Positions 60,195-64,000 of a stretch of DNA of 64,000 bases are shown one piece after another. The number at the start of each line of letters is the position of its first letter. The stretch's first letter is position 1. The notes under the pieces were generated by a model. That model ran no database searches and had not been told where the DNA came from. It saw only the letters and a program-made list of their open reading frames with translations. Source of the DNA: Longimicrobium sp. (GTDB lineage: Bacteria; Gemmatimonadota; Gemmatimonadetes; Longimicrobiales; Longimicrobiaceae); contig DASVTZ010000203.1 in assembly GCA_036387335.1 (NCBI GenBank), positions 1 to 64,000 of the forward strand, written 5' to 3'. The position numbers and the translations under genes are program-made.

Positions 60195-61934
60195 TCACGG
60201 CAGCGCGAACACGAACAGCGCGCTCCCCCGCGGCGCGCCGTACATCTCCGGCGCGTAACCCTCCAGCCAGCCGCCCCATCCTGTGGGGACGGCGATGTAC
60301 TGCTTGCCGCGCACGCTGTAGGTGACCGGGTTGCTGTGGATACCGTTGCCCGTCTGGTAGCTCCACACCAGGGCGCCGGTGCGCGCGTCCCAGGCGTTGA
60401 AGCGGCCGTTGGGCTCGCCCGTGAACACCAGCCCGCCCGCCGTGCTCAGCATCGACGCCACCATGGGATGCTCGCCGCGCCACGACCACACCTCGCGGCC
60501 GTTGACGTCGATCGCCTTCACGTACCCCGTCTGCTCGTAGCTGCGCACGTCCGCCTCGCCGCCGAGGTAGTACATGCTCTCGCGGAAGTGGACGGGGCCG
60601 CGCTTGAAGCGGGCGCACACGTCGATCACGGGGACGTAGAAGAGCCCAGTCTGGGGGCTGTACGAGGCGTGCGGCCACTCCTTCGCCCCCGCCGGCCCAG
60701 GGCAGATCTCCGTGCCCTCGGGCGTGGGGATCAGGCGCGGGGTGACGCGTCCCGTGGTGCCGTCGATGGTGCCCCAGGTGGCGCGGGCAAAGGGTGCGGC
60801 GCGCACGAGCTGGCCGTTGGTGCGGTCCAGGACGAAGAAGTAGCCGTTGCGGTCGAAGTGCCCCAGCAGCCGCCGCCCGCCCTGCTCGAAGAGGATGTTC
60901 TCGTTGACGCCGTCGTAGTCCCACACGTCGTGCGGCGTCCACTGGTAGTGCCAGCGCAGGGCGCCATCGTCCGGATCGATGGCGACGACCGAGCTGGTGT
61001 ACAGGTTGTTGCCGGGACGCGGGCCGCCGTCGAACACCGGGCCCGGGTTGCCCGTGCCCCAGTAGAGGAGGTCGAGCTCGGGATCGTAGGTGCCGGTGAC
61101 CCATGCCGTGCCGCCGCCGCGCGCCCACGCCTCCGCCGGCCACGACTCCGAGCCCGGCTCGCCTGGCTTCGGGACGTTGTACCGGCGCCACACGCGGTTG
61201 CCGGTGGCCTGGTCAAAGGCGTCGATGTGGCCGCGCACCCCGTACTCCGCGCCCGAGCTCCCCACGACCACCAGGTTCTTGACGACGAGCGGCGCCAGCG
61301 TCGCGCTCTCCCCCGCCCGAACGTCGGCGAACGCCTTCTGCCAGACGAGGCGGCCGCTGGTGGCATCGAGCGCCACCAGGTAGCCGTTGGTGGTTGCGTA
61401 GTAGACGCGCCCGCCGGCCACCGCCACGCCGCGGTTCACGTTGCCGCAGCAGAGGGGCACGTCGAGCGGGATCTCGTGCTTGTACTGCCAGAGCAGCTCG
61501 CCCGTGGCCGCGTCCAGCGCCCACACGTAGCCGTCGTAGCCGGAGATGAACATCACGCCGTCCACCACGATGGGCGCCGCCTCCCACGAGTAGGTGGCGG
61601 GGGTGGCCATCAGCCCGACCGGCGCGAACTGGAAGTTCCAGGCGGGGCGCAGGCCACGCACGTTGGAGGTGTTGATCTGGTCGAGGCTGCTGAAGCGCTG
61701 GCCGTCGTACGCGCCGTAGTACGTGAGCCAGTTCTGCGGCTCGGCGCGCGCGCGGCGGATGCGCTCGCCGTCCACTCCCTGCGTGACGGGTGGGGCCGAG
61801 CCGCGCATCGCCTCGTTGAAGGCCGTCATCGGCTTGCTGGTCTCCGTCACCGGCCAGTTGGGCGGCCTGCTGGCGCACGCGGCGGCGGCGGCGAGGGCGA
61901 GGAGCGCGGAGGCGCGTCGGAGGGTTCGGATCAT
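60195..61934 (-). CDS. PQQ-dependent alcohol dehydrogenase, lipoprotein
   Basis: 579 residues. The signal ends LALAAAAAC with Cys20, so the enzyme is lipid-anchored in the periplasm. An eight-bladed propeller binds PQQ: the vicinal Cys162-Cys163 (PLCCGNVNRG) form the disulfide over the cofactor, and Glu230 and Asn296 lie at metal-ligand positions. The catalytic segment is VWDYDGVNEN, with Asp339 and the extra Asp341 that marks lanthanide-using (XoxF/PedH-type) enzymes. The blue-copper protein gene lies ten bases upstream in the same operon and is the likely electron acceptor. The alcohol substrate is unknown. Confidence 0.93.
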   Translation of the reverse strand: MIRTLRRASALLALAAAAACASRPPNWPVTETSKPMTAFNEAMRGSAPPVTQGVDGERIRRARAEPQNWLTYYGAYDGQRFSSLDQINTSNVRGLRPAWNFQFAPVGLMATPATYSWEAAPIVVDGVMFISGYDGYVWALDAATGELLWQYKHEIPLDVPLCCGNVNRGVAVAGGRVYYATTNGYLVALDATSGRLVWQKAFADVRAGESATLAPLVVKNLVVVGSSGAEYGVRGHIDAFDQATGNRVWRRYNVPKPGEPGSESWPAEAWARGGGTAWVTGTYDPELDLLYWGTGNPGPVFDGGPRPGNNLYTSSVVAIDPDDGALRWHYQWTPHDVWDYDGVNENILFEQGGRRLLGHFDRNGYFFVLDRTNGQLVRAAPFARATWGTIDGTTGRVTPRLIPTPEGTEICPGPAGAKEWPHASYSPQTGLFYVPVIDVCARFKRGPVHFRESMYYLGGEADVRSYEQTGYVKAIDVNGREVWSWRGEHPMVASMLSTAGGLVFTGEPNGRFNAWDARTGALVWSYQTGNGIHSNPVTYSVRGKQYIAVPTGWGGWLEGYAPEMYGAPRGSALFVFALP

Positions 61935-61944
61935 GGTTCTCGCC

Positions 61945-62511
61945 TCAGTGCCGGGGCTGCCGGGGACGATCCAGCTTCGCTTCCGCGGGGACTTCGCCGC
62001 TCACCATGATCAGCCCCAGCATGCCGCGCGGCGCGTGGTTGGCCACGGGGCACCCGAACCAGTAGAGCCCCGGCTGGTCCAGCCGGATGCGCGCGCGCCC
62101 GTGCGAGCCCACGGGCAGGAAGAGCGCGTGGCGGTTTCCCGCGTTGGGGAGGAAGGCGGCGTGGTACGAGAAGGGGTCCTCGTTGTAGAAGTCCAGCTCC
62201 AGCTCGCCCCCGCGCGGCATCACCACGATGGCGGGGTACCAGATGTACTCGCCCTTGGGCACGCGCACGGTGGCGCGCATCACCCCGTCGCTCCCCACCT
62301 TTGCGCGGTCCAGCCCCCCATGCGCAAAGAGCCGCGCGACGGTCTCCTCGTTGGGGTCGTCCACCCGCGGAAGCTCGTTGACCAGCCGCACCACGCGCGG
62401 GTTGAGCTGCTTCAGCACGCTGGGCCTCAGCAGCTTGACGTACTCGCAGGACGAGAGGGCCGCAGCCGCCAGCAGGGGCAGCAGCGCGCGGTGAAGGCGT
62501 TTGCGCGGCAT
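61945..62511 (-). CDS. Cupredoxin-like lipoprotein (MSMEG_3727-like PQQ-associated)
   Basis: 188 residues. The lipoprotein signal ends LSSC (Cys22). The C-terminal half is a type-1 copper fold with His117 (SYHAAF), Cys154, His159 and Met164 (FGCPVANHAPRGML), the ordinary blue-copper ligand set. It resembles proteins described as MSMEG_3727-family, found next to PQQ dehydrogenases; I recall that name from annotation and cannot check it here. Co-transcribed with the dehydrogenase ten bases downstream, it probably carries its electrons. Confidence 0.88.
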   Translation of the reverse strand: MPRKRLHRALLPLLAAAALSSCEYVKLLRPSVLKQLNPRVVRLVNELPRVDDPNEETVARLFAHGGLDRAKVGSDGVMRATVRVPKGEYIWYPAIVVMPRGGELELDFYNEDPFSYHAAFLPNAGNRHALFLPVGSHGRARIRLDQPGLYWFGCPVANHAPRGMLGLIMVSGEVPAEAKLDRPRQPRH

Positions 62512-62689
62512 GGCGCGGCCTCGCGGTGCGCAGGATGGGATACGACGCAGCGCCGGAGCGCCCGTCCATTTTGGACCTTAATCGACGCGCATTTCACGTG
62601 CCGCAACATCAGGCGAGTTTGCCGCAGGTCCCAGCATTTTGCCGGCGCTGTAGCGCCCCCCACTAACCTCGCCGCCCCCGCCACCAAAA

Positions 62690-62728
62690 CCCGTAGGGCG
62701 CAGCCCCGCGTGGCTGCCCGTGCCCCGC
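62690..62728 (+). repeat. Family A repeat
   Basis: GTAGGGCGCAGCCCCGCGTG followed by GCTGCCCGTGCCCC, a slightly diverged copy. It lies in the 238-base gap between the cupredoxin and the small lipoprotein gene; the rest of that gap shows nothing I can name. Confidence 0.72.
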
Positions 62729-62749
62729 CACGCGCCGAACCCCGCCTCC

Positions 62750-63139
62750 TCAATCCACCGCGACCGCGATGTTGGACTGGATGTTCCAGCGGATGGTGCT
62801 CGCGCCGCTGAAGCTGAAGGGGTTGGAGAGGATGTCGCGTCCGCCATTGGGTCGGGCGAGCAGGCGGTACTGCCCGCCAACCATCGGGCCGCGGTACTGG
62901 AGGGACGCGTTCCGGTTGGGCGCCACGCTGCCGAGGAGCTGCCGCGTGCCGCTCACCCCGACCACGTACACGGTGAGGTCGCCCGACAGCGTGCCAGTGT
63001 TCTCGATCTCGATCGTCACTCCGCGCTGGCGTTCGCCCGCCGCGCCCGACTGCCCGCCGCCCGAGGTGCTGGCACACGCGCCCGCCACAACGATCATCGC
63101 GAAGGCCAGCAGGAAGCGGGGATCAAGGTACTTCTTCAT
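62750..63139 (-). CDS. Small lipoprotein of unknown function
   Basis: 129 residues from the ATG at 63139, with GAGGAGGG upstream. Signal peptide and lipobox VAGAC (Cys22), then a Gly/Ser-rich stretch and a compact beta-rich domain (VTIEIENTGTLSGDLTVYVVG, LLGSVAPNRNASLQY, YRLLARPNGG). It looks like an immunoglobulin-like or secretin-associated fold but I cannot assign a family. It follows the TonB-dependent receptor by 65 bases on the same strand and may be its surface or periplasmic partner. Confidence 0.82.
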   Translation of the reverse strand: MKKYLDPRFLLAFAMIVVAGACASTSGGGQSGAAGERQRGVTIEIENTGTLSGDLTVYVVGVSGTRQLLGSVAPNRNASLQYRGPMVGGQYRLLARPNGGRDILSNPFSFSGASTIRWNIQSNIAVAVD

Positions 63140-63204
63140 CGTGCCCTCCTCGAAGCGGATGTGGATCGGTTCCAAACACGGCCGGTGCGAAACGCGCGCC
63201 AGCC

Positions 63205-64000
63205 TCATCGCGCGGCGCCCAGCGCCACCGCGACCCCGGTGTACAGCGCGCGCCCCGGCCCCGGCTCGTAGAAGCGCCGCCCGAACGCGTTGACCACCAC
63301 CGAGGCGTTGTAGCGCACGTCGAACAGGTTGGTAACCCCCGCCGAGGGCGTCACGCGCGCCCGGCCCACGCGCAGCGCCTCCCACCCGGCGCGCACGTCC
63401 AGCAGCGAGTACGCGGGCGAGCGGAAGGCGCCCGCGCGGTCGTCGTCGCGCACGGGGATCGAGGAGACGCGGCGCGCGTCCAGCCCGGCAAAGGGACCGC
63501 GGGGGGTCGCCACGTTCAGCGTCCCCTCCCAGCGGTGCGGCGCGATGCCAGGAACGCGGATGCCCTCCAGGTCCACCGCCGCGCTGCCGGTCCCGACGAC
63601 GTACTCGGTGAAGCGCGCGTCGGTGTAGCTGTACGCCGCGCGCGCCGTGACGCCGGGGCGCGGCGAGAGGGCGGCGCTCACCTCCGCTCCACGGCGCCGC
63701 GAGCGGCCGGCGTTGCGGAAGAAGGTGCGGTCCGGCGCCTCGGGAACCTGGAAGCCGATCAGCTCGTCCCGGATCCGCGCGTCGTACACGGCGGCCTCCA
63801 CCCGCAGCGGCCCCGCCTGCGCCTTGCTTCCCAACTCGTACGAATCCGTCACCTGCGGCTCAAGTTCGGGGTTGAAGCCTCCCGCGCCGCCCGGCCGGTT
63901 CGCCAGCTCGGTGGTCGTGGGGGTCTCGAAGGCGTGCGCGTAGTTGGCGTACACGTTCACCCCGCGCAGCGCGGTCACGGACACCCCCAGCGTCGGGCTC
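63205..64000 (-). CDS. TonB-dependent receptor, C-terminal part (truncated by window edge)
   Basis: At least 265 residues of the beta-barrel end. NVYANYAHAFETPTTTELAN is the characteristic TonB-dependent receptor phrase; later strands include TDSYELGSKAQ, AEVSAALSPRPGVTARAAYSYTDARF and NLFDVRYNASVVVNAFGRRFYEPGPGRALYTGVAVAL. The N-terminal plug and TonB box lie outside the window, so the ligand cannot be inferred from them. It is the first gene of a minus-strand series leading to the small lipoprotein, cupredoxin and PQQ dehydrogenase, though a repeat-bearing gap follows the lipoprotein. Confidence 0.92.
   Translation of the reverse strand, partial: SPTLGVSVTALRGVNVYANYAHAFETPTTTELANRPGGAGGFNPELEPQVTDSYELGSKAQAGPLRVEAAVYDARIRDELIGFQVPEAPDRTFFRNAGRSRRRGAEVSAALSPRPGVTARAAYSYTDARFTEYVVGTGSAAVDLEGIRVPGIAPHRWEGTLNVATPRGPFAGLDARRVSSIPVRDDDRAGAFRSPAYSLLDVRAGWEALRVGRARVTPSAGVTNLFDVRYNASVVVNAFGRRFYEPGPGRALYTGVAVALGAAR

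Follow-up and report, generated by a model that had tools for sequence, protein, structure and literature searches.

A quinoprotein dehydrogenase and a type-1 cupredoxin encoded as a pair beside a PqqU-type receptor gene in a Longimicrobium genome

The locus and its enzyme

We analysed a gene pair encoding a quinoprotein (pyrroloquinoline quinone, PQQ) dehydrogenase and a cupredoxin in Longimicrobium sp., a soil bacterium. The window, the whole stretch of 64,000 nucleotides under study, opens a contig of 156 kb (DASVTZ010000203.1; C203) and covers its first 64 kb; the contig belongs to a draft genome (GCA_036387335.1) of 5.8 Mb that is 95.65% complete. Four genes at its right end are transcribed from the minus strand in the order TonB-dependent receptor, 129-residue lipoprotein, cupredoxin lipoprotein and quinoprotein dehydrogenase (Table 1), which confirms the layout, with receptor and small lipoprotein furthest upstream, given in an initial annotation made from the sequence alone. 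Lipobox-like cysteines occur at the N-termini of the enzyme (AAAC), the cupredoxin (LSSC) and the small lipoprotein (GAC). Those of the enzyme and cupredoxin are kept in most diderm homologues, in agreement with the earlier proposal that both are lipid-anchored. The core of interest at this locus is a conserved quinoprotein-cupredoxin pair with a variable metal signature and a copper-free, apparently non-exported offshoot.

Table 1. Features at the right end of the window
Feature	Position	Strand	Details
Quinoprotein (PQQ) alcohol/aldehyde dehydrogenase, 579 residues	60195..61934	-	Putative lipoprotein, no haem motif; Cys162-Cys163, Glu230, Asn296, Asp339, Asp341
10-base gap, cupredoxin stop to enzyme start	61935..61944	-	Putative co-translated pair
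Cupredoxin lipoprotein, MSMEG_3727 PQQ-associated family	61945..62511	-	Type-1 copper ligands H117, C154, H159, M164
238-base gap, small lipoprotein to cupredoxin	62512..62749	-	Sigma-70-like promoter scan upstream of the cupredoxin-enzyme pair: no match
Small lipoprotein, 129 residues	about 62750..63139	-	Predicted six-strand beta; no known family
PqqU-type TonB receptor, C-terminal 264 residues in the window	63205..64000	-	Whole gene L021:7206-9341, 711 residues, running past the window end

The dehydrogenase is a member of TIGR03075 (PQQ-dependent dehydrogenase, methanol/ethanol family; 589.7 bits, cut-off 480) and keeps the catalytic Asp, the Glu and Asn metal ligands and the vicinal cysteines. 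It is about 41-42% identical to each of PedH, ExaA, XoxF2 and a quinohaemoprotein alcohol dehydrogenase. Its close relatives are found in Longimicrobium and other Longimicrobiaceae of the phylum Gemmatimonadota. Maximum-likelihood phylogeny assigns it to an 18-member clade (support 100/99), which a sister pair, L028_B and L031, joins with 100/100 for all 20. The clade is separate from ExaA/PedH and from XoxF/MxaF (100/100 for the split from the latter), and on these grounds membership of either XoxF or PedH/ExaF was rejected.

The enzyme resembles the PedH/ExaA ethanol dehydrogenases, which are served by cytochrome c550 (PedF/ExaB), in identity (about 41%), catalytic residues and vicinal disulfide, and PedH also shares the lanthanide Asp. 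It differs from them in its separate clade, its putative lipid anchor and the copper protein that replaces cytochrome c550. With the XoxF methanol dehydrogenases, which are partnered by XoxG, it shares the DYD signature and 42% identity (to XoxF2), but it lies outside the XoxF/MxaF clade and neither XoxG nor XoxJ adjoins it. No CxxCH open reading frame of at least 90 residues was found in the 20-kb region around the enzyme gene, and hence no candidate there for a XoxG cytochrome partner.

In the sister pair, the quinoproteins (L028:3264-6574 and L031:940-3986) adjoin proteins of 474-529 residues with a C-terminal cupredoxin domain, and at L028 the two enzyme types are separated by a MoxJ-like gene. 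The genome of the window encodes three further methanol/ethanol-family quinoproteins, two on contig C153 and one on C53, all on the XoxF/MxaF side. Those on C153 (L053:6018-12153) are encoded in tandem and accompanied by a cytochrome c, an oxidase subunit and a MoxJ-like protein, an arrangement reported for XoxF3 systems in Gemmatimonadetes (PMC10875860); a YncE-like propeller is encoded nearby. With a cytochrome c beside the C153 enzymes and a cupredoxin beside the window enzyme, the genome appears to hold both cytochrome-linked and copper-linked quinoproteins.

The initial annotation described the enzyme as a putative lanthanide PQQ dehydrogenase, citing an Asp that coordinates lanthanides in enzymes of the XoxF and PedH types. 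The signature on which this was based is present: Asp339-Tyr-Asp341 (PHDVWDYDGVNEN) aligns with D-Y-D in XoxF2 (4mae) and D-F-D in PedH (6zcv), the corresponding motifs being D-F-S in ExaA and D-Y-A in MxaF, and D341 is the second Asp of the lanthanide-type DxD motif. The phylogeny places the enzyme outside both types, and lanthanide use is plausible rather than established; with Asp341 in place the enzyme can probably use a lanthanide, and use of calcium is also possible. Asp occupies position 341 in 16 of the 18 clade members, including all that are more than 90% identical. The exceptions are L024, a close relative, with Glu, and Nitrospira moscoviensis, with Ser, which is the residue of the calcium enzyme ExaA. 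A copper-type pair with Ser for the lanthanide Asp is found both in N. moscoviensis (L027:7454-9740) and in a second Nitrospirota genome (L142). Ser in the two Nitrospira genomes, together with Glu in L024, indicates that metal use probably varies within the cassette; lanthanide use is likely in the window enzyme but reads as a labile trait, not fixed within the clade. Because a single cassette occurs naturally with Asp, Ser or Glu at this position, it offers a means to test what sets lanthanide versus calcium use.

The cupredoxin partner

To our knowledge, the accepted view of this type of PQQ alcohol dehydrogenase is that it requires cytochrome c as its electron acceptor. The gene next to the window enzyme encodes a member of the 'MSMEG_3727 PQQ-associated' family, scoring 145.8 bits against TIGR04339 (cut-off 75; NCBIfam type hypoth_equivalog) and 170.1 bits against Pfam PF23509 (cut-off 27). 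A putative cluster of PQQ genes has been reported to include MSMEG_3727 (PMC6529628). A complete type-1 ligand set, in the order His, Cys, His, Met, can be read from the window sequence, and AlphaFold and Foldseek give a cupredoxin fold (predicted local distance difference test about 90 in the core) whose nearest match is auracyanin, followed by other cupredoxins. Ligands, fold and the lack of a nearby CxxCH frame bear out the earlier claim that a type-1 copper lipoprotein stands ten bases upstream of the enzyme in place of a cytochrome c. All exported members keep the four ligands except for one second copy of the pair in the same-genus genome G298 (L128:5242-7826), in which Cys and His are changed to Asp and Asn and the lipobox-like N-terminus is retained. 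The enzyme of that copy carries an altered motif, WDYDAISE, and a GMC oxidoreductase is encoded upstream.

Cupredoxin and enzyme are paired at every examined locus where both sides are visible, in Gemmatimonadota, Nitrospirota, Pseudomonadota, Actinomycetota and one metagenome-assembled genome of Armatimonadota. The cupredoxin family scores above its cut-off in 4 of 298 Gemmatimonadota genomes (all one genus), 8 of 297 Actinomycetota, 1 of 399 Pseudomonadota and 2 of 296 Nitrospirota. A pair so rare and patchy, with 66-71% identity across phyla, points to horizontal transfer. No convincing cytochrome c gene was seen in the available flanks of the copper-type loci, where the occasional CxxCH frame is read from the other strand; in Thiothrix and relatives, used as comparators from the PedH/ExaA side, a same-strand CxxCH protein is encoded directly downstream of the quinoprotein.

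Seven Actinomycetota loci (L118-L124) depart from this pattern. Their partner lacks three of the four ligands (Cys changed to Ser or Arg, His to Asp, Met to Leu), and neither protein has a signal peptide, as judged by eye from N-termini of which two copper-protein starts are uncertain. Downstream of the pair lies pqqB in all seven, with pqqE as well in six. These loci possibly encode a cytoplasmic quinoprotein with a copper-free cupredoxin subunit. The group is nested inside the enzyme clade beside copper-type members (nesting forks 89-92), and from this position the copper-free state looks derived. Since copper ligands and export are kept or lost together in Actinomycetota, the comparison supports a role for copper outside the cytoplasm. 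The MSMEG_3721-3727 cluster of Mycobacterium smegmatis resembles the window in having a TIGR04339/PF23509 small protein beside a PQQ dehydrogenase. High-scoring Actinomycetota members, other than M. smegmatis itself, lack copper ligands and signal peptides and are accompanied by pqqB and pqqE, whereas the window protein is of the exported, copper-ligand type and its genome has no pqqC.

Our literature search on cupredoxins with lanthanide/XoxF systems or PQQ found no description of this enzyme-cupredoxin pair. For heterotrophic marine Thaumarchaeota it has been proposed that, cytochrome c being absent, PQQ dehydrogenases donate their electrons to blue copper proteins (PMC7300363). The available part of that account describes no dedicated adjacent partner and enzymes without the disulfide pair, whereas the genes here form a fixed pair and the enzyme is of the disulfide type. 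A strictly conserved copper partner gives the exported form of the MSMEG_3727 family a role that can be tested.

The receptor and the supply of PQQ

The initial annotation read the receptor as a possible lanthanide importer, a reading that a full receptor of the siderophore or vitamin B12 type would have refuted. The full-length protein of 711 residues is neither of the latter and belongs to a third class, resembling PqqU (YncD), the TonB-dependent PQQ importer of Escherichia coli. PqqU is its best match by structure and by sequence, at 266 bits (E=6e-78) among entries of the PDB, where FhuA follows at 70 bits, and it outscores every other receptor in the PDB and NCBIfam. Munder et al. (2025, PMC12124388) identified PqqU proteins by Y99 or another aromatic residue, R304 and R365. 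At the published PQQ-binding positions, receptor residues F124, R323, R373 and R538 correspond to Y99, R304, R365 and R536 of the E. coli protein. Besides adjoining a quinoprotein gene, the window receptor differs from E. coli PqqU in carrying Glu294 in place of K274, a change reported as frequent among PqqU homologues and one that, as modelling in the same study suggests, may let a metal travel with PQQ (PMC12124388). In agreement with PMC12124388, a homologue is present in 230 of the 298 Gemmatimonadota genomes; it occurs with or without the enzyme pair, and almost always without it.

We found no pqqC in any of the five genus members sampled, this genome included; the gene scored above cut-off in 34 of 298 Gemmatimonadota genomes and in Nitrospira and other positive controls. 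Matches resembling pqqE were all below cut-off. In a genome without pqqC the receptor would most likely feed PQQ, not lanthanide, to the window enzyme and the three other quinoproteins. PQQ import is the function best supported by PqqU kinship, binding residues, pqqC absence and quinoprotein neighbours elsewhere; most likely, then, the receptor imports a cofactor that the bacterium apparently cannot make. The lanthanide-receptor reading was rejected on PqqU kinship and phylum-wide occurrence: a TonB receptor beside an enzyme with a lanthanide signature need not be a lanthanide receptor. The neighbourhood is a testable case of PQQ scavenging in Gemmatimonadota.

Three points weigh against this assignment. 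With the NCBIfam model for PqqU (NF041535) the receptor reaches 344 bits, below the equivalog cut-off of 1200, for which reason we call it PqqU-type and not an equivalog; the match to R304 holds in pairwise alignment and is gap-shifted in the multiple alignment; and the draft genome is about 96% complete. Two further observations concern receptor genes in related genomes. In two other genera of the family (L078 and L079) a pqqU homologue lies beside a TIGR03074 quinoprotein of the glucose/quinate type, unrelated to the window enzyme. The receptor gene of G264 (L125:7100-9196), 96% identical to that of the window, contains one in-frame TAG and is either a pseudogene or the product of an assembly error.

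Competing explanations and the remaining neighbour

The explanation that we favour, and hold to be reasonably probable as a whole, is a copper-acceptor quinoprotein module combined with PQQ scavenging. In this scheme, a lipid-anchored periplasmic PQQ dehydrogenase would oxidize an alcohol or aldehyde, and electrons would pass singly from PQQH2 to the dedicated lipid-anchored type-1 copper protein, which would carry them to the respiratory chain in place of cytochrome c550 or cL. The PqqU-type receptor would scavenge PQQ, which would serve the window enzyme as well as the genome's three further quinoproteins of the methanol/ethanol family. Against the central step stand the pairs that persist without copper ligands in Actinomycetota and at L128, which suggest that the cupredoxin may also be a structural subunit. 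A rival reading makes it mainly a structural subunit or an assembly factor, with a cytochrome c, or quinone directly, receiving the electrons. Pairing that outlasts ligand loss at the seven Actinomycetota loci and at L128 speaks for this reading; retention of the four ligands by every other exported member, the coincidence of ligand loss with loss of export in Actinomycetota and a fold like that of blue copper carriers speak against it. We regard a mainly structural role as unlikely. An ordinary calcium quinoprotein, in which the Asp is not used for lanthanides, is a somewhat stronger candidate but still a doubtful one: the Ser of the two Nitrospira genomes and the Glu of L024, all in one and the same cassette, speak for it, and retention of Asp in 16 of 18 clade members, including every one above 90% identity, speaks against it.

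Two alternatives concern the receptor. A cluster for lanthanide uptake and use, in which a receptor of the LutH/LanA type imports a lanthanide chelate, would suit the Asp341 signature, and lanthanide uptake by methylotrophs has been tied to TonB receptors (PMC7391723, PMC11317620); Glu294 at the K274 position might moreover allow PQQ to enter together with a metal ion, according to modelling (PMC12124388). We consider such a cluster very improbable, as the receptor is nearest to PqqU by a wide margin, is widespread in the phylum in genomes that almost all lack the enzyme pair, and has no metallophore-related family beside it. A more serious possibility, to which we nevertheless give less than even weight, is that the receptor and small lipoprotein are chance neighbours, functionally unrelated to the pair. 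Flank collinearity, compared by blastn, weighs against the favoured scheme here: receptor and pair are adjacent in the window genome, G264 and L023 only, and these are collinear over a longer stretch, so the adjacency reflects one event. Elsewhere in the genus receptor and pair lie on different contigs, and in the window itself the 238-base gap sets receptor and lipoprotein apart from the pair. Two observations speak against coincidence: the genome lacks pqqC and has a putative PQQ importer next to a PQQ enzyme, and in two further genera a quinoprotein adjoins a pqqU homologue. A conserved four-gene operon as a general rule was rejected, because the receptor is adjacent in the three collinear close genomes alone.

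A broader extension of the copper-acceptor scheme is speculative and, taken whole, rather improbable. In it, a quinoprotein module that dispenses with haem and has its own blue-copper acceptor would have spread horizontally, its metal switching among lanthanide (Asp), Glu and calcium-like (Ser) forms. One lineage would import the cofactor, perhaps as a complex of PQQ with a metal through the K274-to-Glu form of the receptor, and another would synthesize it; in Actinomycetota the pair would have become copper-free and lost its export signals, the quinoprotein possibly being cytoplasmic.

The small lipoprotein encoded between receptor and cupredoxin matched no known family; of the relatives examined, the two closest alone encode a homologue (three sequences in all). 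It is beta-rich and appears to be fast-evolving, being 64% identical in L023, compared with about 90% for the adjacent copper protein.

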